IMG/VR virus record: IMGVR_UViG_3300024265_000060
Span: 1-55,716 of that record
Reading direction: 5' to 3' (one strand)
Length of the DNA: 55,716 nt
Origin: a virus
Positions 1,219 to 55,716 of the stretch are shown here, piece after piece; the first letter of the stretch is position 1, and the number at the start of each line of letters is the position of its first letter. The notes under the pieces were generated by a model. The model searched no databases. It was not told where the DNA came from and saw nothing but the letters and a program-made list of their open reading frames with translations. Both the position numbers and the translations under genes were made by a program.

Positions 1219-1224
1219 TACGAA

Positions 1225-41866: not shown

Positions 41867-41876
41867 GCCGGAGTTT

Positions 41877-41956
41877 GAGATGGGTGGGGAAACCTGCCCA
41901 TCTCTTCCGGGGCCAGTAGCTTGAGAAAGCTATTGACTCGGGGAGAGATAACCCCG
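41877..41956 (+). ncRNA. Three-hairpin RNA element
   Basis: Three perfect hairpins follow each other: GAGATGGG/CCCATCTC (41877-41904), AGTAGCTT/AAGCTATT closed by a GAGA tetraloop with a G-U pair (41915-41934), and CGGGG/CCCCG (41939-41956). They fill the gap between two genes, and the last ends just before the ribosome site of 41970. A leader or attenuator or a small RNA is possible. No long T run follows. Confidence 0.5.
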
Positions 41957-41969
41957 CAAGGGAGCGTGT

Positions 41970-42311: not shown

Positions 42312-42317
42312 TGTAGG

Positions 42318-42390
42318 AAAAGACAGAGCGTGTCGAGCTAGGGTGGCTTATTGAGAATCTGAACCCTAGTAGGCATTGCTCTGTCTTTTT
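42318..42390 (+). terminator. Nested-stem terminator
   Basis: AAAAGACAGAGC (42318-42329) pairs with GCTCTGTCTTTT (42378-42389), 12 bp, enclosing a second 7-bp stem (CTAGGGT/ACCCTAG). The 3' arm ends in five T. It follows the stop of 41970-42311. A terminator with a branched top, or a processed small RNA, fits. Confidence 0.75.
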
Positions 42391-42411
42391 GTGTGCTTAG
42401 GAGGTACTACG

Positions 42412-42546
42412 ATGCGGAAGGTTTCGCAAAAGCAACCAAGGAATTACTGTGCAGTTTGCAAGGTGCTTCGAAAGTGGAAGCACGGAGTCTGTAAGGTTTG
42501 CGAAAGTTGGAGAGACTTCAAAGGAACACTTCGATTCAAGAAGTGA
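42412..42546 (+). CDS. Mini zinc-ribbon protein
   Basis: The product has 44 residues with AGGAGG seven bases before the ATG. CAVC (13-16) and CKVC (27-30) form one ribbon inside a basic, Lys/Arg-rich peptide. It overlaps the next start by GTGA. Confidence 0.75.
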   Translation: MRKVSQKQPRNYCAVCKVLRKWKHGVCKVCESWRDFKGTLRFKK

Positions 42547-42668
42547 AGAGGTTTCGCAATGAAAGTTTCATGTACATTGCGGTAGTAGTTGTCCTTGTGG
42601 CGTGTGCAGGGCGTTTCATCGAGAAGTTTCGCAGGAGGCATGATGCTAACAATGAACCAGAAGCTTAG
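42543..42668 (+). CDS. Tiny membrane protein
   Basis: The product has 41 residues and starts at GTG overlapping the previous stop. A single hydrophobic helix (about 9-23, MYIAVVVVLVACA) lies between basic flanks. The coupled start supports it. The role is unknown. Confidence 0.6.
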   Translation: MKRFRNESFMYIAVVVVLVACAGRFIEKFRRRHDANNEPEA

Positions 42669-42819
42669 AGGAGTGGGATCGTTGCTCCATAAGCTCACGA
42701 TGGAGAATGAAAGGTTGAAGGCTACCAAAGTTAGGTTGTTGGTAGCAATAACAATCATGCAGAAGGAACGGACTTATGATCAATTACAAAGTCGCAAAGT
42801 TCATTCACGAAGAGGTTGA
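42640..42819 (+). CDS. Small leucine-zipper-like protein
   Basis: The product has about 59 residues. AGGAGG precedes two adjacent ATGs (42640 and 42643); the second has better spacing. Leu/Met occur in heptads over residues 10-40. It overlaps the Fic gene by 44 bases in another frame. Confidence 0.6.
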   Translation: MMLTMNQKLRGVGSLLHKLTMENERLKATKVRLLVAITIMQKERTYDQLQSRKVHSRRG

Positions 42820-43240
42820 AAGACAGGGGTTTCGGGTTGGGACTGCTATTCATACGCAAAGGTGTATTTGGATGGCTGATGCTTGGGAGTTTGGTGAGTC
42901 TATGCGTGCTATCTCAGGTTCGATTATCACAAGTGATATCGTAACGATAGGACATTATGTAGAGCCAGAAATCAACGCACGAGGATTCAGAAAAGTTGGC
43001 GTGTGTGTTGGTGATTGGACTGCACCGCATCAAGATGCTGTTCCGAGGTTGATTGAGGCTTGGTGTGAAGCGGTTAATGACGGAAGATTTACGCCGGATG
43101 AGGCTTATAAAGAGTTTGAGCTAATTCATCCGTTTGCAGATGGGAATGGTAGGACTGGGAAGATCATTCACAATATGCTTGGGAACACGATGGATGAGCC
43201 GGTGTTGGTGCAAGATTTCTTTGGTTGTGGTGTTCCTTAA
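42776..43240 (+). CDS. Fic-domain protein (AMP-transferase type)
   Basis: The product has 154 residues. The hallmark HPFADGNGRTGK (118-129) is nearly the Fic consensus HPFx(D/E)GNGRxxR. H118 is the base, D122 binds Mg and R126 binds phosphate. The final Arg is Lys129. Fic enzymes transfer AMP, or other phosphate-linked groups, from nucleotides to Ser, Thr or Tyr of target proteins. No (S/T)xxxE inhibitory helix was seen and no antitoxin gene is adjacent. A phage early protein of this kind could modify a host target. AAGGA precedes the ATG. Confidence 0.85.
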   Translation: MINYKVAKFIHEEVERQGFRVGTAIHTQRCIWMADAWEFGESMRAISGSIITSDIVTIGHYVEPEINARGFRKVGVCVGDWTAPHQDAVPRLIEAWCEAVNDGRFTPDEAYKEFELIHPFADGNGRTGKIIHNMLGNTMDEPVLVQDFFGCGVP

Positions 43241-43252
43241 GGAGAGTTCTCG

Positions 43253-43507
43253 ATGCTACTGAGAAGGTTTGATGTAGTGATGAGGTGCAGTAGACAATGT
43301 GAGTTGAAGCGGGCTGGGAGCGCGTCTGAGATGCGGCTTAGGTTGTTGGAGAAGGATGCGGAGAAACACGCGAAGAAGACGGGGCATGTTACGACTATGG
43401 AGTTTGATAGTCATGACATGGTAGTGAAGGGGTCTGTGGAGTTTTCGTGTGGTTGGGCGAGTAGGCCGCATGTTATGATGGGTTGTAGCGAGCAGCTTGC
43501 TTGTTGA
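43253..43507 (+). CDS. Hypothetical protein
   Basis: The product has 84 residues with AAGGAGAG upstream. A basic helical first half (RLRLLEKDAEKHAKK) precedes a His/Met/Cys-containing C-terminus. It may be a small regulator. No family was recognised. Confidence 0.6.
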   Translation: MLLRRFDVVMRCSRQCELKRAGSASEMRLRLLEKDAEKHAKKTGHVTTMEFDSHDMVVKGSVEFSCGWASRPHVMMGCSEQLAC

Positions 43508-43867
43508 AGGCATAGCCGTTCCTGCGGCTATTGAGCAGATGCGGTTCGTCGCGTAAGGATCGCCGAGTTGGACTAACTAGGGTGCTGTGCGTGAGATCGT
43601 ACAGGTGACGGCACTGAGGCTTAGTCAGCCTACCCTCAATCTAACCTTTCGGCGCAGATGACAACGCAGTCTGTTCACAACTGAGGACAGGAGAGAAGCG
43701 AGGATTACTCCAGCTTTATGATGGCTGCTGTAAGTGCTTCGCTTCTCTCCGCTCTTGAGTTGAGTTTGGTCGTGGTTTCACGACTGAAAGCTGAAGAATG
43801 TGAGGCTTGAGGGGGCAACTTGCGTTCTTCAGTCTTGAGTTGTGAGCTTTAAAAGAAGGGGAAAAGT
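43508..43867 (+). ncRNA. 360-base gap with multiple hairpins
   Basis: This stretch holds no convincing gene but many stems: ATAGCCG/CGGCTAT (43512-43531), GGAGAGAAGCGA/TCGCTTCTCTCC (12 bp, 43690-43750), GTCGTG/CACGAC (43769-43784) and CTGAAGAA/TTCTTCAG (43791-43832). It shares the 11-mer GGATCGCCGAG with the folded gap at 47315-47493. A structured small RNA or long leader for the next gene is likely. Confidence 0.5.
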
Positions 43868-44047
43868 ATGAAATTTGAAGAAATTTGCGCTGAAACGCTA
43901 TGTATTGTTGGAGAAGAAGACTACAAATGCACACTCTTCGAGGGGCATGTAAGAACACATGTGTATCAAGGTGATGGCCGAGCTTATATAAAAGGTAAGC
44001 TAATGGCGATTAACTATACAATACTTTGGGAAAGCAAAGAGGTTTGA
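43868..44047 (+). CDS. Small hypothetical protein
   Basis: The product has 59 residues with AAGGGG before the ATG. Mixed, with two early cysteines and a beta-rich rest, it is isolated between two folded gaps. No family was recognised. Confidence 0.65.
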   Translation: MKFEEICAETLCIVGEEDYKCTLFEGHVRTHVYQGDGRAYIKGKLMAINYTILWESKEV

Positions 44048-44305
44048 GCTTAAGGCTTCGCAAGTAACAAGGCTCGGCCATGGTGTTATCCGTGTAAGTC
44101 CGAGATGATTGCTTGCCGCCTTGAGGCTGCAATGGTGAGGCCACGTGGCTGTTGCAGACGAATACGTGGTTCGGTGGCGGTGAAGTTATTGTGTGAGGAC
44201 TCGCGGGTTCTCTTAGTAGCGTTACGGCGCTGCGCTTCGCCAGCGACACACTGGAGCCGAAGGTGTTCGGGCCGCCACTGATTCTTTTTCTTTGAGGAGG
44301 TTGGG
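44048..44305 (+). ncRNA. Folded leader with terminator-like end
   Basis: TCGGTGGCGG (44171-44180) pairs with CCGCCACTGA (44272-44281), 10 bp with one G-U, enclosing GTGTG/CACAC and CGCTG/CAGCG stems. TTCTTTTTCTTT follows, then the ribosome site of 44306. This is the layout of a transcription attenuator or 3' end of a small RNA. A 58-codon frame (44106-44281) is also open, so coding cannot be excluded. Confidence 0.5.
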
Positions 44306-44572
44306 ATGGCGCAGAGTGTGAAGGTTACAGGCACAGAAGTATCGAAGACGGTAAGCTGGACCGCTATCTGTACACATGGCGGCTTGACTGCGGCGAATGA
44401 CAAGCTTGGGCGCGAAGGATGCAGAAGAGTTCTGGCTACGTCAGACTATGCCCATTGCCTGGCAGAAGCTGTTCTCCACACCAAGAGCTACGAACACGAT
44501 ACGGCAGTTGCGGTTCAAGAGGTTACGGTCCACTGTATCGTGACTCCTTTGGAGAAATATAATGGAAAGTAA
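44306..44572 (+). CDS. Small hypothetical protein
   Basis: The product has 88 residues with GAGGAGG before the ATG. Beta-rich start, then several Cys and His (CTHGG, CRRV, HCLAEA, HCIV). It is the only ordinary gene after the attenuator-like leader and may be the controlled product. Unknown family. Confidence 0.65.
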   Translation: MAQSVKVTGTEVSKTVSWTAICTHGGLTAANDKLGREGCRRVLATSDYAHCLAEAVLHTKSYEHDTAVAVQEVTVHCIVTPLEKYNGK

Positions 44573-44666
44573 CATCAAAGAGTTCGTCAAGGAGTTGTTG
44601 GCTGGAGCTTTGTTGGTGTTGCTTGGGTGGGTTTGGTATTGGGTGTTGGTTACTGTGGGAGGTTGA
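44562..44666 (+). CDS. Tiny membrane protein
   Basis: The product has 34 residues and overlaps the end of the previous gene. After a charged start the rest is one helix rich in Leu, Val and Trp (LLAGALLVLLGWVWYWVLV). Its position just before another membrane gene suggests a small envelope group. Confidence 0.6.
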   Translation: MESNIKEFVKELLAGALLVLLGWVWYWVLVTVGG

Positions 44667-44667
44667 G

Positions 44668-44820
44668 ATGGCAGAGTCATTAATTATATTTGGAAGGTTA
44701 TTGCTATTTATCATTATCGTCTTAGGCATGAGTCTCGCTGAGCGCGGTAGTGTGCAACAGGTGCTGTGGGTTATAGCAATAATCTTAGTGTTGTTTCTTC
44801 CAGGAGGAGAGAAGAAATGA
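44668..44820 (+). CDS. Small membrane protein, two helices
   Basis: The product has 50 residues. Two hydrophobic helices (4-20 and 31-45) are joined by a charged turn. GGGAGG precedes the ATG. It overlaps the next start by ATGA. Confidence 0.65.
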   Translation: MAESLIIFGRLLLFIIIVLGMSLAERGSVQQVLWVIAIILVLFLPGGEKK

Positions 44821-44948
44821 GTAGAAAGAAAAAGCGCGGTGTTCCGTTGCCAAAGGGTTGGGCAAGGTTGTTGACGACGAAGTTGGCAATGGTGAGAGCG
44901 AAGCCGAAGAAGGCTGGGGCTGTGGTGATGGTTGCGAGGGTAAGATAA
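44817..44948 (+). CDS. Small basic peptide
   Basis: The product has 43 residues. Very rich in Lys and Arg (SRKKKRGV, RAKPKKAG), it could bind nucleic acid. The start overlaps the previous stop (ATGA) and GGAGG lies upstream. Role unknown. Confidence 0.65.
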   Translation: MSRKKKRGVPLPKGWARLLTTKLAMVRAKPKKAGAVVMVARVR

Positions 44949-45394
44949 TGGTTGCGAAACAACTGTGTGCGCTTTGCTGCTGCGCCTTTCACCGAACGGT
45001 GGTTTCAGGAGTTTGTAGCTGCGGAAATGAGGGTGATTTAGGGGTGTGCTTTCATACGTCCCCCCTTAGAAAGGTGAAGGAGGCTGTCGAAATGCGTCGA
45101 TGCGGAGATGGCACTAGGTGTTGTTGCGATACGCTGCACACGTGTCCTCCAAAACCGAAACCAACACGGGAACATTATATTCTTGTGAAGAGGGATGACC
45201 CGCGAAGGGTGCTACACAAGTATTATAGTGCGAAGTGTTTAGATTGCAGCCAAGTACATACTTATACCTACGACTTCGTTACGCCAACTGCGTCAGAAGA
45301 GTGGGGTGTGAAGCATCTAGAGGCGTCTTCGCGGTGCAAGTTGGTTACAGTGAATGTGTCAACTGATGAATCGTTTTCTAAGGTGATAAAATGA
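44948..45394 (+). CDS. Cys-rich hypothetical protein
   Basis: The product has 148 residues. The first 60 hold many cysteines (CALCCCAF, CSCG, CCCD), and CLDC lies further on. The rest is mixed. The start overlaps the previous stop (TAATG). Several zinc sites are possible. The frame is open upstream, and I chose the coupled start. Confidence 0.6.
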   Translation: MVAKQLCALCCCAFHRTVVSGVCSCGNEGDLGVCFHTSPLRKVKEAVEMRRCGDGTRCCCDTLHTCPPKPKPTREHYILVKRDDPRRVLHKYYSAKCLDCSQVHTYTYDFVTPTASEEWGVKHLEASSRCKLVTVNVSTDESFSKVIK

Positions 45395-45486
45395 AGCTCA
45401 TGTGCGGAGTTGAAGTCTTGCTGGTCGTTGGTCTGTTTGGGCTTTGCAAGAAGGCGTATTGTTATGCTTGTAGAGTTTTTAGATAG
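45391..45486 (+). CDS. Tiny Cys-containing membrane peptide
   Basis: The product has 31 residues with an ATGA-coupled start. Hydrophobic (VEVLLVVGLFGLC) with a basic, Cys-containing end (CKKAYCYAC). A short membrane peptide is likely. Confidence 0.5.
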   Translation: MKLMCGVEVLLVVGLFGLCKKAYCYACRVFR

Positions 45487-45655
45487 CAAGATATCTGTTC
45501 GAGCAAGCTTTGTTCCAAGGGATATCAGGCTAGGAGTCTGGTGGTTTGGGACAGTGGAGAAGATTTTCGTTACGGTGAACTTCCCATTTTGGGAAGCTTT
45601 ATTTGTTTGGAGGAGACGTGCGAAGTTACCCGAAGATTTTCGCGCTTGGACATAA
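45464..45655 (+). CDS. Small hypothetical protein
   Basis: The product has 63 residues. ATG 45464 was chosen; the frame is open further upstream. It is a Trp/Phe/Arg-rich, beta-type sequence (LGVWWFGTVEKIFVTV). Its end overlaps the RNA-ligase gene by 38 bases. Unknown function. Confidence 0.6.
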   Translation: MLVEFLDSKISVRASFVPRDIRLGVWWFGTVEKIFVTVNFPFWEALFVWRRRAKLPEDFRAWT

Positions 45656-46499
45656 AGCTGTCAAGGAGTTGCTTGATGGTGAGGTTGTTGTTCAAGAGAA
45701 GATTGATGGTAGTCAGTTTAGCTTTTGTTTGAAGAGTGGCAAGTTGGAGATGAGGAGCAAGGGGGCTGTTATTGATCCTGATGCGCCTCCAAGCTTGTTT
45801 AGCTCGGTGGTTGCAGGGATTAAAGAGATTCAGGATAAGCTGCATCCTGGTTGGAGTTATCGCGGGGAGCAGCTGAGTAAGCTGAAGCATAATACGATTG
45901 AGTATAAGAGGCTGCCAAAGCGGCATTTTGTGTTGTTTGACGTGGATACAGGAATGGAGGATTTCTTGACTCCACGAGAAATGCATGTTGAAGCGGAGCG
46001 GCTTGGGGTGTCGAGGGTTGCTTTGCTTGGGCAGTTTCCGGGGAAGATGTTGACGGAGAAGTTGATTGGAGAAATGATTGATGGGCCAAGTACGCTTGGT
46101 GGAGTTATTGAAGGGATTGTCATTAAGGCTTATGGGCGGTTTGGGGAAGATAAGAAAACGCTCATGGGGAAGTTTGTGAAGGAAGAGTTTAAGGAGGCTC
46201 ATAGGGCTGCTTGGAGTAAGACGAACCCGAGTGGGAAAGATGTTGTTCAGAAGTTGATTGAGGGGTTGAGGACTGAAGCTAGGTGGGAAAAGGCTGTTCA
46301 GCATCTTAGGGATGGTGGGTTCCTAGTAGATGAGCCAAAAGACATAGGGTTGCTGTTCAAAGAGGTCAATAGGGACGTTCTTGAGGAAGAAAAGAGCGAG
46401 ATCGAGGTGGTCTTGTTTAAGTGGGCTTGGAAAGATGTTTCAAGGGGGATTACGGCTGGGCTTGCTGAGTGGTATAAACGAGAGTTGATGAAGAGGTAA
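45618..46499 (+). CDS. RNA ligase, Rnl2-like
   Basis: The product has 293 residues. Motif I EKIDGSQFSF has the AMP-accepting Lys28. RSKG (motif Ia region), VIEGIVIKAYG (motif IV) and LMGKFVKEEFKE (motif V) follow in order, as in T4 Rnl2-type ligases that seal nicks in RNA. I chose GTG 45618 with GGAGG four bases upstream over the TTG at 45603. No polynucleotide kinase gene is present. Phage RNA ligases usually repair tRNA cut by host defences or process RNA. Several folded RNA gaps lie in the same unit. Confidence 0.9.
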   Translation: MRSYPKIFALGHKAVKELLDGEVVVQEKIDGSQFSFCLKSGKLEMRSKGAVIDPDAPPSLFSSVVAGIKEIQDKLHPGWSYRGEQLSKLKHNTIEYKRLPKRHFVLFDVDTGMEDFLTPREMHVEAERLGVSRVALLGQFPGKMLTEKLIGEMIDGPSTLGGVIEGIVIKAYGRFGEDKKTLMGKFVKEEFKEAHRAAWSKTNPSGKDVVQKLIEGLRTEARWEKAVQHLRDGGFLVDEPKDIGLLFKEVNRDVLEEEKSEIEVVLFKWAWKDVSRGITAGLAEWYKRELMKR

Positions 46500-46503
46500 G
46501 TTG

Positions 46504-46788
46504 ATGAGGGTTTTCTGCAAAAAGCCTCCGAAGATTGGGGAAACAGTGGTTTGGTTTGATTATGGACAGTCTTCCCAGGACGATTTTAAGCCTACTATGG
46601 AAACCAGAAAACTGCTTCTTGGCGTAGCCATGGATGTAGAAGGGCCTGAGAAATATGTAAAGATTATGGTAACAGAAGGATCGCCAAATATTGACAATGC
46701 ATACGTACCTGGAAGTGTTGTGTACTTATTCTGGGATGTATCGCTTCGAACAATCAAGGAGGTGGAAGATGCTAACGATGCCACATGA
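46504..46788 (+). CDS. Small 'FCK-PPK-GE' family protein
   Basis: The product has 94 residues. RVFCKKPPKIGETVVW at the start matches three further small proteins of this window (46978, 47494 and 52878). The C-terminus LRTIKEVED also matches the ends of two of them. A small beta barrel with a start-site Cys is likely. No function is known. Confidence 0.7.
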   Translation: MRVFCKKPPKIGETVVWFDYGQSSQDDFKPTMETRKLLLGVAMDVEGPEKYVKIMVTEGSPNIDNAYVPGSVVYLFWDVSLRTIKEVEDANDAT

Positions 46789-46978
46789 AGTAAAGTTGGA
46801 AAGAGGTTGTTCGAAGATGGAAAAGATGGGAAGTGGGAAGACGGCTAGGAAGCGGGCTTCGAAGCATAAAAAGCCCGCTAGGTGTCTTTGTGGGAGAGTT
46901 TTAGAGTGTTGCCAAGTGGCAATAGGAAATAGTATGTGTCAGTGCGGAGAGTTTAAGGGGCATTGCGGGGTGAATTGA
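46769..46978 (+). CDS. Basic Cys-rich mini-protein
   Basis: The product has 69 residues. A very basic first half (KTARKRASKHKK) precedes CLCG, CCQV and CQCG, one or two zinc sites. It overlaps both neighbours and has GGAGG upstream. Nucleic-acid binding is possible. Confidence 0.6.
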   Translation: MLTMPHEVKLERGCSKMEKMGSGKTARKRASKHKKPARCLCGRVLECCQVAIGNSMCQCGEFKGHCGVN

Positions 46979-47181
46979 TGAGAGAGGTTTTTTGTAGAAA
47001 GTTTCCAAAGGTTGGTGACACGGTTGTTTTGGACTGTGATGACCTTTACTTTAGGAGAACTGTAAGAGAGGTGGATGGAGCTAGGAGAAATTTATTGCTT
47101 AGTGGCCTGCTTATGTGGTCCAGTTGGAATGATACTTGGAATGGTGTGCGAATGCAGAAAGTTGTCTTGGTCAAAGATTAG
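46978..47181 (+). CDS. Small 'FCRKFPKVGD' family protein
   Basis: The product has 67 residues. The start REVFCRKFPKVGDTVV is nearly identical to that of 47494-47733. The end differs and appears shorter than in the relatives. It overlaps another open frame (47075-47314). A gene-duplication product. Confidence 0.7.
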   Translation: MREVFCRKFPKVGDTVVLDCDDLYFRRTVREVDGARRNLLLSGLLMWSSWNDTWNGVRMQKVVLVKD

Positions 47182-47314
47182 TCCATCTAGGATAATACAG
47201 TGGCCCGTAAGTGAGCTAGTAGAGGCTCAAATGGTTCTTATGTCGGCCCATAGATGGGCAAGGCAACAGGTAATTAAGGAAGCAGCTTGCGGGTTGAGGC
47301 GAGCGGACTTTTAG
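47075..47314 (+). CDS. Overlapping membrane-type small protein
   Basis: The product has 79 residues in a frame overlapping the previous gene by 107 bases. A hydrophobic start (IYCLVACLCGPVGMILGMV) is followed by a helical Ala/Arg/Glu part. AGAGAGG lies upstream of ATG 47075. Real expression is uncertain. Confidence 0.45.
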   Translation: MELGEIYCLVACLCGPVGMILGMVCECRKLSWSKISPSRIIQWPVSELVEAQMVLMSAHRWARQQVIKEAACGLRRADF

Positions 47315-47493
47315 ACTTCCGAAACGAGTCTCTCGGCCTGTTGCCGACTGAATGAGTGGCCGGGATATCGGCCTTTTGGCGAACCTAGTCCGTCTCGGAT
47401 CGCCGAGGATCTTCGGATCTGGAGTTTTCATGAGCGGTAACGTCTTTGCTGAAAGCACCGGCCCGGCCACTCTAAGTTTTCTTTGGAGGAAAG
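47315..47493 (+). ncRNA. Folded gap with 11-bp closing stem
   Basis: GAGTGGCCGGG (47354-47364) and CCCGGCCACTC (47462-47472) pair perfectly around about 97 bases with inner stems (CCGA/TCGG). TAAGTTTTCTTT follows, then the ribosome site of 47494. Two short hairpins (GACT/AGTC and TCGGC/GCCGA) precede it. Attenuator or small RNA. A 53-codon frame (47352-47513) is also open. Confidence 0.55.
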
Positions 47494-47733
47494 ATGCGAG
47501 AAGTTTTTTGTAAGAGATTTCCAAAGGTCGGTGATGAAGTTGTTTCGTTGGTGTGGCGGCTAGGTAGAGAGCGAGTTTGGTCGAGGGCGAGGGTTGTTGA
47601 GGTTGCGCCTCTAACGTCGCTACTGGTACGGTTGACACCAAACGGTTCTGAACTGTACGCAGTAGACCACGGACAACAGGTTTTCTGGTGGCGTTGGGGA
47701 GCCACTATGAGAATCGTGAAGAGGGTGGAATAA
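47494..47733 (+). CDS. Small 'FCKRFPKVGD' family protein
   Basis: The product has 79 residues. REVFCKRFPKVGDEVV at the start and TMRIVKRVE at the end are shared with the relatives at 46504, 46978 and 52878. A Trp/Arg-rich middle is present. TTTGGAGG precedes the ATG. Function unknown. Confidence 0.75.
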   Translation: MREVFCKRFPKVGDEVVSLVWRLGRERVWSRARVVEVAPLTSLLVRLTPNGSELYAVDHGQQVFWWRWGATMRIVKRVE

Positions 47734-47972
47734 TGGCGAAGAAGCTTATTCTTTGCAGGTCGGAGAAGCGGTGGAAAGCGTTGAAAGCTGGAGACTTGGT
47801 TGGGTGCTCAAGACAAGGAATGTCGATATCAACGCTTTCTGGTCAACAACATGATGGGTTTATCTCTTTTAGAATTTCTGATATTCACGGTAATGTTTAT
47901 GATATTGAAGGCAGAGCAATGTTGAGATGTCCTCTATGTGGCGTTCCAGTAGAGATAGATGTGGCTGAGTAA
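47733..47972 (+). CDS. Small protein with C-terminal CPLC
   Basis: The product has 79 residues. The start overlaps the previous stop (TAATG). It begins KKLILCRSEKRWKALKAGD, perhaps a distant relative of the FCK-FPK-GD family, and ends with CPLCGVPVEID, half a zinc ribbon. It ends two bases before the convergent regulator gene. Confidence 0.6.
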   Translation: MAKKLILCRSEKRWKALKAGDLVGCSRQGMSISTLSGQQHDGFISFRISDIHGNVYDIEGRAMLRCPLCGVPVEIDVAE

Positions 47973-47973
47973 G

Positions 47974-48492
47974 TTACATGCAAATAGCGTTCCAATGAGG
48001 AGCATTAGGGGGTCGAAGTTTTTCGCCGCAACAACCAATAAACGTTGTGGTTATGGTTGCCCAGTCTTTTTCTGAGATGGAAGAGAATTTGGACGGAAAG
48101 CGGCGACCGGCGAGTTCTGAAAGGTGATCGTTTACTGAGCGAAAGTCTCCACCGTTGCTGTGGCAGCGACGTTCGTGTCTAGAGACTTGGAGTGGCCAGT
48201 GGCGAGGCAATAGGACCATATGGTGATGTTGCCAGGATGGTTCGGAGCGGAGAAGCCAGTTCAAGAACCAGCGACCACCATTGTCGATAGCTGCAGGACG
48301 CGCTGGGTGCCCTTCTAAGAGCAGGAAATCGACAATGGATAGGTCAGTAGGCTCAAGAGGAGTTTTATCGACGTAGGCGGCTACAGCGTCGTTCAGGATG
48401 GCATTCATAGGACGGCCTTGGACCTCTGATAGGCGCTTGACGATGTTGGCCAAATCTGCGTTGACCATTAGGAGCATACGGACTTTAGCCAT
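47974..48492 (-). CDS. Ribbon-helix-helix regulator, extended
   Basis: The product has 172 residues. The first 45 (MAKVRMLLMVNADLANIVKR, then RPMNAILNDAVAAYVD) fit a ribbon-helix-helix DNA-binding domain. The rest is His/Trp/Arg-rich and unassigned. I chose ATG 48492, eight bases into the end of the upstream gene. It likely binds DNA as a dimer and could control its own promoter and the rightward early genes. Confidence 0.65.
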   Translation of the reverse strand: MAKVRMLLMVNADLANIVKRLSEVQGRPMNAILNDAVAAYVDKTPLEPTDLSIVDFLLLEGHPARPAAIDNGGRWFLNWLLRSEPSWQHHHMVLLPRHWPLQVSRHERRCHSNGGDFRSVNDHLSELAGRRFPSKFSSISEKDWATITTTFIGCCGEKLRPPNAPHWNAICM

Positions 48493-48637
48493 TTTGGGCT
48501 TTTTCCCGTTCAATTCCTTCGTTTATGTAACGACGGACAAGGGCTGAACGGGTGACGTGTTGCTCTTCGGCGATCTTGTCGAGGAGCTGAATGGTGAACT
48601 GTTCGAAGTTGACTAGAATGCCCGCTGTGAATCTCAT
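48485..48637 (-). CDS. Small ribbon-helix-helix (CopG-like) protein
   Basis: The product has 50 residues. RFTAGILVNFEQFTIQLLDK as a strand and helix, then HVTRSALVRRYINEGIE as the second helix, give the ribbon-helix-helix pattern. AAAAAGGAG precedes the ATG. The gene forms an operon with 47974-48492, transcribed against its surroundings. Confidence 0.75.
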   Translation of the reverse strand: MRFTAGILVNFEQFTIQLLDKIAEEQHVTRSALVRRYINEGIEREKAQNG

Positions 48638-48659
48638 TGGGTTTTCTCCTTTTTAGGGG

Positions 48660-48673
48660 GCTAGTATAGCATA
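48660..48673 (-). promoter_or_regulatory. Promoter of regulator pair
   Basis: GTATGCTATACTAG on the minus strand contains an extended -10 (TG C TATACT, -10 at 48668-48663). The -35 is weak. It would give a leader of about 20 bases with the ribosome site AAGGAG. Confidence 0.6.
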
Positions 48674-49136
48674 CAAAGTTTTATGACTATCTCGAAATTG
48701 TGTGTGACCACAACATTCTCAAATCGAAAAAAACTGGCCTTAAAGTGTTGCTATAAAGAGGGTTAGTGTGAAAAATGGTGCTAGTTGTAAAAACTTCTCT
48801 CTCTATAGGCCACAGTGAACCCCCCCACTCTTTTAACATATATAGAAATGGGGGTTGAGGAAGACTTGGTTTTGGGGGCTGTTTTTAGGGGTGATTATAT
48901 GTTATTGTCTTATACATAATAAAGGTGGGTGGGTTACAAGTGGCAGTATAGTCTAGGTAAAAAGGAGAAATGATTAAGAATTCGAGATAAGTTAAGTTTT
49001 CGCAATGGTTTAGATCCGGTTTTGCGTAGTAGCATGAATTGTGTGTCTACACGACGTTTCGGTATAGATGTAAGGGTTAATATGTGTTAAATGTCTAATG
49101 TAACCTATTCAAAACAGAAAGGAGGTGATAGGCTAA
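48674..49136. other. Intergenic region between divergent genes
   Basis: These 463 bases contain no convincing gene. They include a hairpin AACCCCC/GGGGGTT (48818-48856), a six-codon frame at 48970-48990 with a strong AAAAAGGAG site, and a possible rightward promoter TTGTGT-N18-TATAGA (49039-49068). The ribosome site of 49137 (AAAGGAGGTGAT) matches the 16S tail almost fully. Confidence 0.5.
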
Positions 49137-49568
49137 ATGAAAGAAGGCAACATTCTCGTCGTGAAGAACGACGGGTCAGTTCCTTCGAGATTCCGGAATC
49201 TCTTGGCGGGAACGCTTTGGAAGATGAAGGAAGATCGGGGAGGTGGAAGGATTACCGTGATGGACAAGAATTTCGCAGGCATTCGCACCAATTCGCGGTA
49301 CTTCGATGTGGTTGATGAACGGACGTTCGATCAGCTAACGGTCAATGGCGGTGAGACGGATATGTTTTTCCGGCTGATTGCTATTGAAGATGTTGGACCG
49401 GACACTGAGTTTCCGACTCCGCCTGGGTTTACCACGATCCAGGTGAATGGAGATTCGGTGGACGTTGCGACGGGGCTTGTGGGGAGCTTGAGTGCTCATA
49501 AGCCGGAGAAGTTGGTTCAGCGGAAGTTGGCAGGGGCTAACCACAGTTCTGCCAGTTGTTGCGGGTAG
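49137..49568 (+). CDS. Strongly translated hypothetical protein
   Basis: The product has 143 residues. The ribosome site AAAGGAGGTGAT is close to a perfect match to the anti-Shine-Dalgarno, so strong expression is expected. It is beta-rich in the first half, and the C-terminus ends SSASCCG. It stands before the amidoligase and amidotransferase genes. It could be a substrate of that pair, but this is a guess from location and a Cys-Cys-Gly end. Confidence 0.7.
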   Translation: MKEGNILVVKNDGSVPSRFRNLLAGTLWKMKEDRGGGRITVMDKNFAGIRTNSRYFDVVDERTFDQLTVNGGETDMFFRLIAIEDVGPDTEFPTPPGFTTIQVNGDSVDVATGLVGSLSAHKPEKLVQRKLAGANHSSASCCG

Positions 49569-49580
49569 GTTTTTTCTGGG

Positions 49581-49627
49581 GGGAAAGGGGACAAATTGGG
49601 GACAAGTAATAGTTTGTCCCCTTTCCC
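49581..49627 (+). promoter_or_regulatory. 15-bp perfect hairpin before amidoligase
   Basis: GGGAAAGGGGACAAA (49581-49595) pairs perfectly with TTTGTCCCCTTTCCC (49613-49627), loop of 17. It separates the strongly translated gene from the amidoligase. No T run follows on this strand, so stabilising the upstream message or acting as a partial terminator or protein-binding site are options. Confidence 0.65.
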
Positions 49628-49646
49628 TCTTGGAGGAGGTGAGAGG

Positions 49647-50693
49647 TTGAAAGGCGTTTGTAGCTGTGCACTTTGTAATACGAGGCAAAAGCCGACAGGC
49701 GTGATTACCCCTAGGATTGAACGGATGCGGGGGTATGAGATTGAGCTGACGAGGAGCATTGATGCAGGGATGGGGGACTGTAGCAGCCATTTCAAGTTTT
49801 GTGATAAAGGAGACGGGTGTTCGCTGCTGCAACCGAAGGATAGGGATTTCTGTGGATGCGAGTCGTGCAATGCGGAGAAGAAGGTTAAGGAGGGTGGGGC
49901 TCGAAAGTGTCCTGGACATTCGTGTGCAGAAAGAGGTACTTCGCAGTATTTGACAGAAATTGTCAAGAATAGCGTTGAGTTCCATGAGGTGCAGGGGGAT
50001 TTTTCGCAGCACAGAAGGACGCCGAGAGATAATGAATTCTGGGATCTCAAGACGGACAGTTCTTGTGGGTATGAGATTGCAACTCCGCCACTTACAGGGG
50101 GGGTTGTGGAGAAGGTTGTTGGGCCGGTTGTTAAAGCGTTGCAAGCGGAAGCGGAGTTGCATAAGATCGAGTTTGTTGGAAACGCTTGTGGCTTGCATGT
50201 GACATTTGATGTTCAGGATGTGGGGGCGAGAGGGATTAAGCAGGTTGTGTTTACGATGCTGAGGCATCAGGCGGCATTGGTGGGGACACAAGCGGGCTAT
50301 CGGAGGGGGAACGAAGCGTGCCCGTTTCTTCAGAATGGAAAAGATACGAGAAGAGAAGTAGCGACGGTGCCAAATATCAAGCGGCAGTTGCCGGGGAGGA
50401 TCAATAATCGGGGCGTGATGAACTTGTCGAAAGTTCAGCATGGGAGTGATTTGATTGAGTTCAGGTATGGCGGGGCGAGTCTTGATATTAAGGAGATTGC
50501 CGCGTTTGGGGTGTTGAATGAGTGTTTGATTCAGGCGAGCTTGCATAGGCCGGAAATTTGCATTACGAACAACAGGAAAAGGAGGCTGTTTGAGGAGATT
50601 GTGAAGCCTTATATAGGGGATAAGAGAGTGGAGGAGGCTTGGGAAGCGGTTTTGGAGCCTAGGCTGAAGGAATCAACGTTAGGGAGGGTTTAA
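49647..50693 (+). CDS. Putative amidoligase (Amidoligase_2 type)
   Basis: The product has 348 residues. RGYEIELTR (E31/E33), WDLKTDSSCGYEIATPP (D137, E143), CGLHVTFDV (H184) and LIEFRYGG (E271, R273) follow the order of the COOH-NH2 ligase family known as putative amidoligase. Such enzymes are expected to use ATP to join a carboxylate to an amine, and the family is often found beside glutamine amidotransferase-like genes, as here. Eleven cysteines occupy residues 5-93, an unusual insertion that may hold zinc. TTG start with AGGAGGTGA upstream. Confidence 0.8.
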   Translation: MKGVCSCALCNTRQKPTGVITPRIERMRGYEIELTRSIDAGMGDCSSHFKFCDKGDGCSLLQPKDRDFCGCESCNAEKKVKEGGARKCPGHSCAERGTSQYLTEIVKNSVEFHEVQGDFSQHRRTPRDNEFWDLKTDSSCGYEIATPPLTGGVVEKVVGPVVKALQAEAELHKIEFVGNACGLHVTFDVQDVGARGIKQVVFTMLRHQAALVGTQAGYRRGNEACPFLQNGKDTRREVATVPNIKRQLPGRINNRGVMNLSKVQHGSDLIEFRYGGASLDIKEIAAFGVLNECLIQASLHRPEICITNNRKRRLFEEIVKPYIGDKRVEEAWEAVLEPRLKESTLGRV

Positions 50694-50706
50694 GGAGGGT
50701 TGAGAT

Positions 50707-51447
50707 TTGTGTAGAATTGCATTTTTCCCACCCAGGACGGATGTTAAAGATCCGCTGGTGATGCCACATCTCGGGTATTTAGTGGAGTATCAAGGTGGGG
50801 ACGGGGCGGGGATTGGAACCTGGAGTGGTGATAAGCAGGTGATGATCAAAGGGATGCAGCATGATGGGAAGTCGCTTGGGCGCATCCTGAAGAAAAGAGG
50901 GAATGAGACCGGGTGGTTGTTTCATGCTAGACTTGCAAGTGTTGGGCCGAAGGTGAATGAGTTGACACAGCCGATGAGTGCCGGGGATGAGCTGTTTGTG
51001 CATAACGGGCATTGGAGTGGTTGGGATAACTTGTATTGGCCGATGCTTATGCAAGGAAAGATTGATGTTAAGGAGAATGTTAGCGATTCTTTAATAATGT
51101 CAAGGATGATTGAAGCGACAGGGAGAGAGCTGTTGCAGAGGATGGCGAGTGGGGTTTTTGTGACGTTCCGTAAAGGGGCGGATCATGCGGTTTTGACGTT
51201 GCAAAGTGGAGCGTTTGCGTATAGTAGCTTGCCGGGTGGTGGGTTTGTTTATTCTAGTTCGTTTCCGGAAACTTGGCCGATGAAGGTTTATGAGTTCAAG
51301 TCGGGGACAGTGGCGAAATTGGGGGATATGGGGCCGGAGATTGTCTTTGGTGGGGAACCGTTCGAGACGAAGGGAACGTTTTCGTCTAAGGGTGGGTCAA
51401 GGAGTTGGCAAGGACATGCTGGGGTTCCGGCTCACTACATGCATTAG
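50707..51447 (+). CDS. Class II glutamine amidotransferase-like protein
   Basis: The product has 246 residues. The predicted Cys2 (TTG-Cys start, MCRI) is the N-terminal nucleophile. GGDGAG (30-35), FHARLASVGP (72-81) with N84 and QP (88-89), and VHNGHWSG (98-105) match the GATase II fold that hydrolyses amide bonds, usually of glutamine. The nearby amidoligase suggests a joint pathway of adding and removing, or supplying ammonia. GGAGG lies eight bases before the TTG. Confidence 0.8.
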   Translation: MCRIAFFPPRTDVKDPLVMPHLGYLVEYQGGDGAGIGTWSGDKQVMIKGMQHDGKSLGRILKKRGNETGWLFHARLASVGPKVNELTQPMSAGDELFVHNGHWSGWDNLYWPMLMQGKIDVKENVSDSLIMSRMIEATGRELLQRMASGVFVTFRKGADHAVLTLQSGAFAYSSLPGGGFVYSSSFPETWPMKVYEFKSGTVAKLGDMGPEIVFGGEPFETKGTFSSKGGSRSWQGHAGVPAHYMH

Positions 51448-51456
51448 GAGGAAAAG

Positions 51457-51765
51457 GTGCAAACAGTCGTGCTTGAGGAGCTAGTGTCGGGGAATTTGAG
51501 GCCGAGGCGGATTTACGAGAAAACATGGCGAGCAAGTGGATGTGGGAGGATGTTGACGAATATCAAGGATGACCAGAAAGTAGTGTTTGTTACGCCGGGG
51601 TCTGTGTTGATGACGACCGATGAAGGGATAGGGAAGGCTGCGAAGCAGTTAGGGATTGTTGTGCATAAGATGGAGAAATTGGATAGGAAAACATTGAACA
51701 AGGAGCTGGAATTTGCTCCTTCGATGGGATTACGGCGTGCGATAAGGTGGACAATTGGGAGATAG
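51457..51765 (+). CDS. Hypothetical protein in amidoligase cluster
   Basis: The product has 102 residues and GTG start with AGGAGG five bases upstream. Basic start (RPRRIYEKTWRASG), beta-rich middle (KVVFVTPGSVLMTTD), helical end. Its location ten bases after the amidotransferase supports a common transcript. Function unknown. Confidence 0.6.
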   Translation: MQTVVLEELVSGNLRPRRIYEKTWRASGCGRMLTNIKDDQKVVFVTPGSVLMTTDEGIGKAAKQLGIVVHKMEKLDRKTLNKELEFAPSMGLRRAIRWTIGR

Positions 51766-51767
51766 AG

Positions 51768-52085
51768 GTGAGGGCTGCATTTAGGAAGAAACGAGGAGTA
51801 TCGAGTGTTGAGGTAGTTTTAAGACAGACGGTTGCGGGGTTTTCGGGAAATTGCAGGAAGTGTAAGAGGAATGATAAGAAAGATTTTCGCCTTGATAAAC
51901 CGAAAGCTTTTATAAAGCATTTGAGCAAACATGTTGAGAACGGGGATCATGTGCAACCGGTGGTTATTGGAGCGATTTTGGGTGCGGTGTTGAATGAGGG
52001 GGTTTTTGTGCCTTCCTATCAGTTTGATGTGGGTGAGTTGGAAGACATTATAGAGTTTAGATATGATTCTCTTGATGATGAATAA
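51768..52085 (+). CDS. Small basic hypothetical protein
   Basis: The product has 105 residues. I use GTG 51768, which has GGGAG and begins just after the previous stop; GTG 51747 is an alternative. CRKC and a basic stretch (KRNDKKDF) are followed by a hydrophobic helix and an acidic C-terminus. Unknown family. Confidence 0.6.
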   Translation: MRAAFRKKRGVSSVEVVLRQTVAGFSGNCRKCKRNDKKDFRLDKPKAFIKHLSKHVENGDHVQPVVIGAILGAVLNEGVFVPSYQFDVGELEDIIEFRYDSLDDE

Positions 52086-52482
52086 AAATGAGCAATTTAC
52101 GGCTTGGGCTGCCGGTGTTGCTGATGTGAGGATGTCGGTGCGGCCGGTGAGGTTTGGGAATAAGCAACCTGGGTATTCGATTGCTGTTGTACTTTATGGG
52201 GTGTCGGTAGCGATAGCGAAAGCCTGGGGAACGGTAATGGAGACCAGGTTGACAAGGACAACATGCAAGAGGAATAAGACGTTGGAATGGAGAGTTCCAG
52301 CGAAGGATCATGAAAGGGTTTTGAAGAGGTTGTTGCCGTTTATGCAGAATGATGCGGATGTGAGGAGGGGGCTGGAGTTTAGAAGGTTGAGGAGGGGCGA
52401 TATTGGCAGGAAGGGGGCAATTTTCACACTGTGGCGAGCGGTGAGGAAAAGGAGTAAAGGTGAAGGTTACAAGAAAGTTTAG
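52078..52482 (+). CDS. LAGLIDADG-like protein, degenerate
   Basis: The product has 134 residues. WAAGVADVRMSV aligns with the LAGLIDADG helix (position of the Asp kept, the following Gly-Asp/Glu-Gly changed). The later YSIAVVLYGVSVAIAKAWG, TLEWRVPAKDHERVLKRLLP and LEFRRL blocks resemble the rest of a single-repeat homing endonuclease. If right it is a non-mobile or repurposed DNA-binding protein. The fit is moderate. Confidence 0.45.
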   Translation: MNKNEQFTAWAAGVADVRMSVRPVRFGNKQPGYSIAVVLYGVSVAIAKAWGTVMETRLTRTTCKRNKTLEWRVPAKDHERVLKRLLPFMQNDADVRRGLEFRRLRRGDIGRKGAIFTLWRAVRKRSKGEGYKKV

Positions 52483-52921
52483 CCCAAAGGGGTGTTGGTG
52501 TTGTGGGGTTACGCATGGAGATGTAGATATAGAGGATGTTGATGGTGTGATGTGGTGTTTGTCGTGCTTGATTGGTGAGCATCCGGAGTGGGAGGTTGGG
52601 TATGATGTTTTTGATATCGTGGCGAAGTGTGGAAGTGGGAAGTGTGGACGAGTTTTGTCTATGTACAGGCTTAAGAGGTTTGAGCTTGCGGAGTTGCTGA
52701 CAACAGATGATTGGAAAAAATGTGACGTGTGTGGGGAGGATGCGATGGACTTGGAGGTTTGTCCGGTTTATCCGCACACAGTTGCACAGGAGTCAAGGAT
52801 GGGGAAGCGGAAAGTTACGGGGTATTTGGAGCCTGAGAAAAAGAAACCGGAGCCGATTCCGGTGAAGGAGCTGAGGGATGGCGAAGTGGGTGGAGTGCAA
52901 GAGGTTTCCGAAACAGGGTGA
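52460..52921 (+). CDS. Zinc-ribbon protein
   Basis: The product has 153 residues and a GTG start with AGGAG upstream. CWCC, CLSC, CGSGKC, CDVCG and CPVY give two or three metal sites. A Pro/Lys/Glu-rich tail follows. The gene overlaps both neighbours. Function unknown. Confidence 0.65.
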   Translation: MKVTRKFSPKGCWCCGVTHGDVDIEDVDGVMWCLSCLIGEHPEWEVGYDVFDIVAKCGSGKCGRVLSMYRLKRFELAELLTTDDWKKCDVCGEDAMDLEVCPVYPHTVAQESRMGKRKVTGYLEPEKKKPEPIPVKELRDGEVGGVQEVSETG

Positions 52922-53141
52922 TTTTGTTGTGAAGCGGGCGCTTGGCGGACTGATTGCTGGGGTTGTTGGTGAGGTTGATTTACGTTATAAGGCTGTCTAT
53001 GGGAGGGCCGCAGCTCCACCTGATGATTGGATTTCGGGACAGGAGTTGCATAGATGCCATCGCGACCATAGAGCTATTGAAGAGGGACGACCATTCAGTA
53101 TTGGATGGAATGCCACAGCGAGGATTTTGAAGCAAGTGTGA
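52878..53141 (+). CDS. Small 'CKRFPKQGD' family protein
   Basis: The product has 87 residues. WVECKRFPKQGDFVV at the start and TARILKQV at the end link it to the family at 46504, 46978 and 47494, about 5 kb away. AAGGAG lies seven bases before the ATG. Its first 44 bases overlap the previous gene. Confidence 0.7.
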   Translation: MAKWVECKRFPKQGDFVVKRALGGLIAGVVGEVDLRYKAVYGRAAAPPDDWISGQELHRCHRDHRAIEEGRPFSIGWNATARILKQV

Positions 53142-53169
53142 TATGATGCTCCTCTAGGAGGGTTGAGCG

Positions 53170-54018
53170 TTGAAGACAAGCACGAGCAGGATGGGGGTGC
53201 TGGAAACGTGTCCGAGGAAGTTTTATTGGCGATATGTAGCGAATAGGGGGGAATGGACAGGGGTTAAGCAGGAATTCGGGATTATTATTCATGAAGCTCT
53301 GGCGACCCATTACAGGGGTGGTAACATATTAGAAGCGTTTGACTTAGGGGTTGCGGGTGCGACGAATGCGGAGCATCCGGATTTTGTCAAAATGTTGCCG
53401 GTTTGGAGGCAGAGGGTTGAGGAATATCCGAAGCATTACAAGGTGGAGGAGTGGGATGTCATCCTGACGCCGGAAGCTGAGCTGGAATTGACTTTTGGAA
53501 GCCATAAGATGTATGTGAGGTTGGACCTGATAGTGAGGTCCAAGAGGACGGGGCAGGTTTGGGTAGTTGACCATAAAACTACGGTGAGGACAGGAAGTAG
53601 TTGGTGGGCTCAGTTCTTTGTTGATAAGCAGGGGAGTGGTTATACACTAGCGGCTGAAGAAGCGTTGGGGGAAGAGGTTGCTGGGTGGCTTATTAATGTG
53701 ATTAAGCCGACCAAGACTGGGTGGTTTGAGCGGGAAGCTTTTACCAGAACCAGGGCTCAGTTAGAGTCGTTTAAGAGGCAGATGGTTTTTAGGTTGGATA
53801 GGTTGGTGGAGGAGTTGAAGCAGATTGACAAGGATGATCCGCTAAGTTATGATGCTATGTTAATAGTGGATAGGCTATTTCCACAGCACACTGGAAGCTG
53901 TCATGGGTTTGGGACGTGTCCGTACATTGCAGCTTGTCAGGTGGGTTATGAGCAAGTGAAGACGGTTGTGGAAGCGCAGTTTGAAGTGAGGAAACTGAGT
54001 CCGGTTGACGGGGCTTAG
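53170..54018 (+). CDS. Cas4/RecB-like PD-(D/E)XK nuclease
   Basis: The product has 282 residues. H41, D119 (VRLDLIV), D134-K136 (VVDHKT) and the Q154/Y158 motif form the RecB-family nuclease site. C14 (TCPRKF) with C244, C250 and C256 near the end match the iron-sulfur cluster cysteines of Cas4 and AddB. Probably an exonuclease in recombination, beside the RecA-like ATPase. TTG start with AGGAGG upstream. Confidence 0.85.
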   Translation: MKTSTSRMGVLETCPRKFYWRYVANRGEWTGVKQEFGIIIHEALATHYRGGNILEAFDLGVAGATNAEHPDFVKMLPVWRQRVEEYPKHYKVEEWDVILTPEAELELTFGSHKMYVRLDLIVRSKRTGQVWVVDHKTTVRTGSSWWAQFFVDKQGSGYTLAAEEALGEEVAGWLINVIKPTKTGWFEREAFTRTRAQLESFKRQMVFRLDRLVEELKQIDKDDPLSYDAMLIVDRLFPQHTGSCHGFGTCPYIAACQVGYEQVKTVVEAQFEVRKLSPVDGA

Positions 54019-54020
54019 GG

Positions 54021-54095
54021 GTGGAGTTGTTGGTGGTGGTAGTGATGATTTTTGCTGGATTTTGGATAGTGGATAAGTTGACCGAAAAGAAGTAA
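54021..54095 (+). CDS. Tiny membrane peptide
   Basis: The product has 24 residues, from GTG 54021. One helix (LLVVVVMIFAGFWIV) then a charged tail. The space between two recombination genes and the clean helix are the only support. Confidence 0.35.
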   Translation: MELLVVVVMIFAGFWIVDKLTEKK

Positions 54096-54106
54096 AGTGT
54101 GGTAAG

Positions 54107-54250
54107 ATGGAGGAATTCAGGCCGGGAAGCCGGATAGGTGGGATGTTGGCGAGTGGCACTTGGGTCTATGGCCATAGGCCGCGATTGTTGGTAGAGCGCA
54201 GGGAGCCAAACCTGAATATTTTGGAGGAATCTTGGAAAAGAAACCATTGA
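54107..54250 (+). CDS. Small hypothetical protein
   Basis: The product has 47 residues. It fills the gap before the ATPase gene, overlapping it by 19 bases. A basic, Arg-rich sequence (YGHRPRLLVERREPNL) reads as protein. No strong ribosome site was seen. A 7-bp outer stem in the DNA (54115-54217) gives an alternative reading as a folded leader. Confidence 0.4.
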   Translation: MEEFRPGSRIGGMLASGTWVYGHRPRLLVERREPNLNILEESWKRNH

Positions 54251-54978
54251 GAGAGCTGGAAGTGAGCCATCATCTCTCTGTTCATATAACAGCACCTGCA
54301 AAGTATGGCAAGACGACGTGTGGGATTAGTGCACCGAGGCCGATTTTGTGGGGAGATGTGGACAAGGGGTTGGAGAGTTTGCTGAAGACAGATGTTGTGC
54401 CGAGCGAAATGCTTGATGGGATTGACATTACGGAGATTGAGAGCTATGCGCAGGCACAGGAGTTGTTTCAAAGTGGCTGGAAGGATGGACCAGGTGGGAA
54501 ACCGTATAAGACGGTGATTTTGGATACGTTTTCGACCCTTCTTAACAGGGTTATCAAGAAGAAAGAGATTTTAAAGGGTCGGGAAAAGATGGAGCTTCAG
54601 GATTGGGGCCTTTATTTGGAACGGGGGCTGCATATTGCGTTGACGGCACATGAGTTGGCGATCAAGGAAGATGGTTGCCATACGATTCTGATGTTTCATG
54701 AGGCGGACAAAGGGGGAGAGGATGGAGAGATTGGGAAGCTTGGACCTGCGGTGAGTGGGCAGTTGTTTAATATCTTGCCGGGGATTCCAAACTTTTCTTT
54801 CTTTCTGAGGATTCGGCGCTTGGGGCTTAATGCTAACAAGACGCCGAAGTTGGTGAGGCAGTTGCAGACTGGGGCAGATAATAGGACTCCGGCTGGGTCA
54901 AGGAGTTCTTTGGATATGTATGAAGCGCCGGATATTTCGGCGATTTGGGAAAAGGTTAAGAAGAAAGATGCCAAGTGA
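54232..54978 (+). CDS. RecA-like phage ATPase (Sak4-type role)
   Basis: The product has 248 residues. Walker A TAPAKYGKTT (20-29) and Walker B YKTVILDTFS (D98) define a RecA-fold ATPase, of the AAA_24/Sak4 kind found beside phage nucleases and ssDNA-binding genes. It probably supports strand annealing in recombination. TTG start with GGAGG four bases upstream. Confidence 0.8.
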   Translation: MEKKPLRELEVSHHLSVHITAPAKYGKTTCGISAPRPILWGDVDKGLESLLKTDVVPSEMLDGIDITEIESYAQAQELFQSGWKDGPGGKPYKTVILDTFSTLLNRVIKKKEILKGREKMELQDWGLYLERGLHIALTAHELAIKEDGCHTILMFHEADKGGEDGEIGKLGPAVSGQLFNILPGIPNFSFFLRIRRLGLNANKTPKLVRQLQTGADNRTPAGSRSSLDMYEAPDISAIWEKVKKKDAK

Positions 54979-55144
54979 AGAAGAGATTAGAAACTATTCA
55001 GATTTTGGCGGTAATGGTGAGTGGTTGCAGAGCGTAGAGGATTGGATCGAAACACAGGATGATGGAAAAAATTGGCTTTCGCGGCTTGCGGCAGACGTGG
55101 GAGTTCCGGTTCAATTAAGGCTGCCGTTTGAGGAGAAAGATTAA
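54968..55144 (+). CDS. Small hypothetical protein
   Basis: The product has 58 residues. The ATG lies inside the last codons of the ATPase gene. Acidic first half, Leu-rich end (VPVQLRLPFEEKD). This C-terminal type resembles ssDNA-binding partner tails, but no function is known. Confidence 0.6.
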   Translation: MPSEEEIRNYSDFGGNGEWLQSVEDWIETQDDGKNWLSRLAADVGVPVQLRLPFEEKD

Positions 55145-55145
55145 G

Positions 55146-55604
55146 ATGGCGTTGCCAATTGACATGAGTACGGTGAGTGCTGCGGACAAGTATCCGGAGG
55201 GTAGGTTTCGGGTGAGGGTCTTGTCGGCGGAGGTCAGGCCAAAGGATGCAGAGATTAATGACCAGTGCGAGGTTGTTGGGCAGGTTACGGAGAAAGGGAC
55301 GCAGAAGTATTGTGGATTGTCAGTGGGGTTTCGGTACATCGAGCATCCGAGCAATTACACCGTGGATGAGAATGGGAAAGATCTGAGCATGGTGGGTCGG
55401 ACGCGGTTTCAGTTCTTCTCGATGCATCCAAAGATGATCAAGCATGTGAAGAGGATGTTTGTTGCTGCGGGTATTGAGGGGAGTGATGAGCAGGAGCTGG
55501 TTGGGCAGGAGATTGATATTGTGAGTGAGGATCAGGTGGATAATAGGGAACCTGATGGTCCGAAGGAGAGTAAGGTTACGAGGACTATGGTTGCGATGGG
55601 ATAG
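55146..55604 (+). CDS. Possible single-stranded-DNA-binding protein
   Basis: The product has 152 residues. Beta-rich middle with RFRVRVLSAEVRP and TRFQFFSM, and an acidic to polar end (DREPDGPKESKV type). Position after a Sak4-like ATPase is typical for phage DUF669/ssDNA-binding genes. Assigned by context. GGAG-type site upstream. Confidence 0.5.
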   Translation: MALPIDMSTVSAADKYPEGRFRVRVLSAEVRPKDAEINDQCEVVGQVTEKGTQKYCGLSVGFRYIEHPSNYTVDENGKDLSMVGRTRFQFFSMHPKMIKHVKRMFVAAGIEGSDEQELVGQEIDIVSEDQVDNREPDGPKESKVTRTMVAMG

Positions 55605-55628
55605 TTCACCATAAATCCCACAGGTGAA
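55605..55628 (+). terminator. Hairpin after last gene
   Basis: TTCACC (55605-55610) and GGTGAA (55623-55628) form a 6-bp stem right after the stop of the last gene. No T run follows, so termination is doubtful. Confidence 0.35.
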
Positions 55629-55646
55629 CCAGCAGGGGCGCGTCTG

Positions 55647-55699
55647 CTGCGAACAACGCGTGATTTTCTCAGATGGGGGTGATGCTAATAAACCTCGAA
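55647..55699. repeat. Terminal direct repeat, right copy
   Basis: This is an exact copy of bases 8-60. Its upstream flank (CGCGTCTG) lacks the left arm of the first hairpin, and the downstream bases show the inverted loop. Confidence 0.95.
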
Positions 55700-55716
55700 G
55701 TTTAAGTCGTTCGAGG
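55693..55716. repeat. Hairpin with inverted loop (right)
   Basis: CCTCGAA and TTCGAGG flank GTTTAAGTCG, the reverse complement of the loop at 61-70. The window ends exactly at the end of this hairpin. Confidence 0.85.

Follow-up and report, generated by a model that had tools for sequence, protein, structure and literature searches.

The virus record described here, called the window, is 55,716 bases long. Two of its adjacent genes are, judged from their sequences, a very divergent new member of an already-known phage system in which a predicted ATP-dependent amidoligase is paired with a predicted class II glutamine amidotransferase. The terminase, portal and head proteins of the window match phage families, and the nearest relatives of its terminase are those of the Manatee Spring podovirus and of the PA11/TC6 group; the window is therefore a phage, as the initial annotation had called it.

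The combination of ligase and amidotransferase as such is not new: published descriptions from phages exist (PMC3890496, PMC3517423, PMC10580990). In the accessible portions of the papers concerned, both genes are reported from UFV-P2 and LUZ24-like phages (PMC3890496), phage tf (PMC3517423), TC6 (PMC6209634), the OM43 phages, where they form a two-gene arrangement (PMC10580990), and a planctomycete phage (PMC10945688), and several of these papers refer to Iyer et al. 2009 (Mol Biosyst 5:1636). These portions suggest a role in modifying the envelope against superinfection, in secondary metabolites or in nitrogen metabolism; no test of the chemistry or the product of the isolated enzymes was found in the accessible portions of the literature on the phage pair. 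The pair spans phages of very different hosts, i.e., Pseudomonas, Escherichia, Mycobacterium, Sinorhizobium, marine OM43 bacteria and the hosts of gut phages.

Gene order and flanking features

The region 49137–51765 holds exactly four consecutive plus-strand open reading frames, encoding a 143-aa protein, the amidoligase, the amidotransferase and a 102-aa protein. Its features are the following:

49137..49568, + strand: 143-aa protein, function not assigned; strong ribosome site, with about 500 nt without a clear gene upstream
49581..49627, + strand: perfect inverted repeat of 15 bp, a hairpin that separates the 143-aa gene from the amidoligase gene
49647..50693, + strand: amidoligase (Amidoligase_2-type ATP-dependent carboxylate-amine ligase with a Cys-rich insertion), 348 aa, TTG start; assigned by Pfam, phage-derived HMM and motif alignment
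49731..50054, + strand: stretch with the Cys-rich insertion, beginning with GYEIE (motif I, residue 29) and ending immediately ahead of TDSS (residue 136); defined by inter-motif distance and list of cysteines
50707..51447, + strand: class II glutamine amidotransferase of 246 aa as a stand-alone domain (Ntn type with Cys2 as nucleophile), TTG start; assigned by Pfam, phage-derived HMM and conserved residues
51457..51765, + strand: 102-aa protein, function not assigned; GTG start, from the list of open reading frames

The tight spacing that the initial annotation ascribed to all four genes holds between amidoligase and amidotransferase (13 nt) and between amidotransferase and the 102-aa gene (9 nt). 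The first gene is the exception: 78 nt containing the hairpin separate it from the amidoligase gene. The amidoligase and amidotransferase reading frames both have good ribosome sites, and the 13-nt spacing between them favours co-translation. The 102-aa gene is overlapped by the next gene, and a chain of overlapping small genes lies downstream; from this overlap and spacing, we infer that the pair belongs to an early operon that extends beyond it.

The 102-aa protein gave no Pfam match, a PHROG match at chance level only and an empty tblastn search among phages. Neither it nor the 143-aa protein has detectable relatives in the compared loci or phage records, and neither was found beside other amidoligase–amidotransferase pairs. 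The four-gene cassette of the initial annotation is therefore unsupported, and the small flanking genes, which do not recur, were dropped as part of the system. The PADLOC models matched none of the five proteins of the cassette region.

The arms of the hairpin lie at 49581–49595 and 49613–49627, with a folding energy of about −35 kcal/mol. A mobile repeat shared with a host was considered and rejected, as a 22-base stretch of the hairpin has no exact match in the viral and genome contigs. Nor is the hairpin called a terminator here, because it is absent from the output of the terminator scan and its matches to animal microRNA models are all sub-threshold.

The amidoligase

The reading frame at 49647–50693 matches the Pfam family Amidoligase_2 (PF12224) with E 6.5e-8 and 33.2 bits (cut-off 22), and the whole-record Pfam search gave Amidoligase_2 at 33.1 bits. 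HMMs built from phage relatives (12 amidoligases and 11 amidotransferases, the window sequence being left out) were searched against all open reading frames of the window and of the compared loci; the amidoligase HMM matched 49647–50693 with E 5.9e-10 and found no other reading frame in the window. The gene most likely starts with the TTG at 49647, directly after a GGAGGAGG ribosome site, rather than at 49596, which sits at the hairpin. Numbered from this TTG, the motifs on which the initial annotation had based its assignment lie where it placed them, i.e., GYEIEL at residues 29–34, CGLHVTF at 181–187 and IEFR at 270–273.

The ligase keeps GYEIE, TDSS...GYEIATPP, His184, Arg219, Asn259 and IEFR. 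Motif I of Amidoligase_2 (G-x-E-[ILVM]-E) is thus present as GYEIE at residue 29, although the insertion described below keeps it out of the HMM alignment, and the D-x-S...E...P motif and the Arg, Asn and E-x-R motifs are represented by D137, S139, E143, P148, R219, N259, E271 and R273. With its profile inside the family and most residues of the catalytic motifs in place, the protein belongs to the amidoligases as proposed. The exception is the HxH motif, in which the first His is retained (H184) and the second is Thr (CGLHVT), whereas HxH occurs in every relative with a readable motif. The first His is presumably a metal ligand of the glutamine-synthetase type; as the near-invariant second His is replaced by Thr, full ligase activity is not assured.

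The distance from motif I to D-x-S is about 105 residues in the window ligase, compared to 23–50 in those relatives in which both motifs were located. The inserted stretch contains eight cysteines (residues 45, 52, 58, 69, 71, 74, 88 and 93), and three further cysteines precede motif I; when the stretch is omitted, the ligase aligns along all motifs. We infer that the inserted cysteine cluster binds zinc. It could serve as a zinc-binding docking or substrate-recognition module, and would then stand in for the Cys-rich regions that the Marvin and Manatee Spring relatives carry ahead of motif I. The divergent HxH motif and the cysteine insertion broaden the known sequence range of the family.

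By tblastn and phmmer, the nearest ligase is that of Bacillus phage 055SW001 (22.9% identity, E 1e-4), which is also nearest by tree path, with support that is not firm. In the tree, the branch of the window ligase is very long (3.05 changes per column), and the ligase is nearest by path to the ligases of the Bacillus phage, C75C1 and fecal phages, again with support that is not firm.

Pattern and tblastn searches returned no close relatives of the ligase or the amidotransferase in IMG/VR, and none of the ligase in GTDB genomes; no close relatives of the ligase were found in plasmids either, and the PDB sequence search gave no credible relative. AlphaFold2, run on single sequences without an alignment, gave a pLDDT of 32 for both proteins. 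A relative phage reached through the terminase (58% identity; L042) is represented by a fragment of 25.8 kb that matches the window in the structural half, so that the absence of a hit in it is uninformative on the pair, and scans with the polymerase and the Sak4-like protein found nothing.

The amidotransferase

The reading frame at 50707–51447 matches Pfam GATase_6 with E 1.9e-7 and 31.6 bits (cut-off 27), and the amidotransferase HMM matched it with E 1e-5 and found no other reading frame in the window. Its N-terminus is MCRIAFF, with the Cys directly after the start Met (TTG-TGT at 50707). The earlier description of this protein as a class II glutamine amidotransferase with Cys2 therefore stands, but the Pfam domain is GATase_6, not GATase_2. 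Cys2, Arg75, Asn100-Gly101 and Asp127 are invariant among ten aligned proteins (the window amidotransferase and nine relatives), and by comparison with GlmS and AsnB they correspond to the nucleophile of class II enzymes, the oxyanion hole and the residues that bind glutamine. Gln replaces the usual His of the 'HPF' motif and Ser replaces the Thr of 'RxxT', so that the use of glutamine by this protein is not certain.

The pair in other phages

That the amidoligase neighbours amidotransferase-like genes, as the initial annotation stated, is borne out by the profile searches and by a survey of gene neighbourhoods, in which other phages do carry both genes together: the pair recurs in about ten phage groups. 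The two genes are immediate neighbours in LUZ24 (gp18-gp19), phiEco32 (gp84-gp83), Marvin (gp105-gp106), MEP402 (gp06-gp07), MW202733 and two fecal phage contigs, and also in Bifidobacterium phages, whose ligase scores are weaker; they are separated by a few genes in phiM6, TC6 and C75C1. Among 23 IMG/VR loci recovered with the MEP402 amidotransferase, which are kin and not independent, the ligase lies just upstream in 22, and the sequence of the remaining locus starts inside the amidotransferase. In the available sequence around the ligases of Bacillus phage 055SW001, Clostridioides AR1086-1 and Microcoleus My-WqHQDG, no amidotransferase was found; near the Bacillus phage ligase, a gamma-glutamyl cyclotransferase is found instead. 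In phage C75C1, a class II amidotransferase domain is fused to a gamma-glutamyl cyclotransferase domain (L016:4001-4897), downstream of the amidoligase.

The larger cassette of LUZ24, phiEco32, phiM6 and TC6 comprises the amidoligase, the amidotransferase and an ATP-grasp ligase, often with a COOH-NH2 ligase and a gamma-glutamyl cyclotransferase. It resembles the window in that both genes adjoin each other or lie a few genes apart, beside replication genes; its amidotransferases, however, have 368–676 aa, whereas that of the window is shorter (246 aa). Pfam scans of the window (all three plus-strand frames of 1–9701, 41000–49137 and 51700–55715) and phmmer with the known proteins against all its open reading frames detected neither a COOH-NH2 ligase nor an ATP-grasp peptide ligase nor a cyclotransferase. 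This compact version, with two genes and free of other ligases, makes it convenient to look for the product of the pair, and it is mainly as such a minimal form that the pair is worth biochemical study.

MEP401 and MEP402 (OM43) and the Manatee Spring podovirus MW202733 share the two-gene order, amidoligase followed directly by amidotransferase, but their ligases carry about 270–330 residues ahead of motif I, unlike the window ligase. Marvin gp105-gp106 likewise consists of a Cys-rich amidoligase-like protein followed by a stand-alone class II amidotransferase of about 300 aa; the cysteines lie before motif I in Marvin, whereas those of the window ligase lie mostly after it, and identity between Marvin and the window is below 20% for both proteins. 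Marvin gp105 scores 19.5 bits with Pfam Amidoligase_2, just under the cut-off of 22, and is an amidoligase by the phage-derived HMM. This protein (L007:41627-42988) is annotated as 'glutamine amidotransferase domain protein', although the profile that its sequence matches is that of the amidoligases and not that of the amidotransferases, and near-identical gp105-like proteins of Marvin-like phages carry the same amidotransferase label.

Proposed chemistry and alternatives

Our favoured, though tentative, reading is that the genes at 49647–50693 and 50707–51447 form a divergent phage pair for the glutamine-fed amidation of a carboxylate. The amidotransferase would free ammonia from glutamine via its N-terminal Cys, and the GS-like ligase would activate the carboxylate with ATP and join ammonia (or another amine) to it; early in infection, the phage could in this way amidate a small molecule, a peptide or a component of the cell envelope. 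GS-like enzymes classically take free ammonia. The Thr in place of the second His of HxH, together with the Gln and Ser substitutions in the amidotransferase, speaks against glutamine-fed amidation. For the Bacillus phage relative, with its cyclotransferase and no amidotransferase nearby, gamma-glutamyl removal would fit better than ammonia supply. The main rival, which we consider somewhat unlikely, is a pair that adds and removes a group: the ligase would attach a glutamyl or similar group through an amide bond, and the protein with the amidotransferase fold would hydrolyse this bond. Such a pair could resemble EgtA and EgtC, which act in this way on either side of gamma-glutamylcysteine when ergothioneine is made, or could handle a reversible tag. 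EgtC, an amidohydrolase akin to the class II amidotransferases, takes off a glutamyl residue (PMC9103826), and the window amidotransferase is, like EgtC, a stand-alone domain; cyclotransferases also occur repeatedly near such ligases, as in Bacillus phage 055SW001 and in the amidotransferase fusion of C75C1. However, the EgtC model (TIGR03442) gives the window protein 13.7 bits against an NCBIfam cut-off of 218.65, which is noise, and neither a cyclotransferase nor a third enzyme was found in the early regions scanned. The sequence does not settle whether the pair hydrolyses an installed bond or carries out glutamine-fed amidation.

Either chemistry could act on the host envelope, i.e., on peptidoglycan or a surface polymer, and block superinfection, a proposal that concerns the target only. 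It was put forward in the literature for phiEco32 and is credited to Iyer et al. 2009 in the accessible text of PMC10580990 and PMC11318856, where it comes without experimental backing; no envelope-synthesis enzymes were found near the pair, and we regard this target as improbable. A catalytically crippled ligase, the pair being a relic or having a binding role, would account for the replacement of HVH by HVT, the long branch and the large insertion; yet both frames are intact and have strong ribosome sites, the first His of HxH is retained and so are the remaining motif residues, which makes this explanation quite unlikely. Still further down in probability, and very unlikely, is a protein-tagging system in which the Cys (zinc) module would steer the amidoligase to join or amidate either a protein of the host or the 143-aa neighbour, which is highly translated; the amidotransferase would then undo the reaction or feed it. 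The 143-aa protein ends in ...SASCCG.

Other features of the window

Several further genes were identified in the early region. A 154-aa Fic/DOC protein (42776–43240, +) with an intact HPFADGNGRTGK motif matches both Pfam Fic and PADLOC SoFic, and is possibly an AMP-transfer enzyme or toxin. There are also Pfam matches to a uracil-DNA glycosylase (4053–4367, +), a GroES-type chaperonin (Cpn10; about 5152–5442, +) and a partial nicotinamide mononucleotide transporter (8012–8224, +). An RNA ligase (45603–46499, +; Pfam RNA_ligase, PHROG 548) possibly repairs cleaved tRNA; the window contains no tRNA genes. Four small proteins (46501–46788, 46963–47181, 47494–47733 and 52878–53141, all +) have similar N-termini (e.g. 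MREVFCKRFPKVGDEVV) and apparently form a paralogous family.

The early-gene coding strand shows a strong excess of G over C at 42000–54000 and 4000–10000, with a skew of 0.28–0.47. A 53-bp direct repeat is present at both window ends (8–60 and 55647–55699). After it comes a palindrome-like piece of 24 nt, which stands at one end as the reverse complement of its form at the other. These end repeats suggest that the genome is complete or has terminal repeats, and that the assembly broke at a hairpin.
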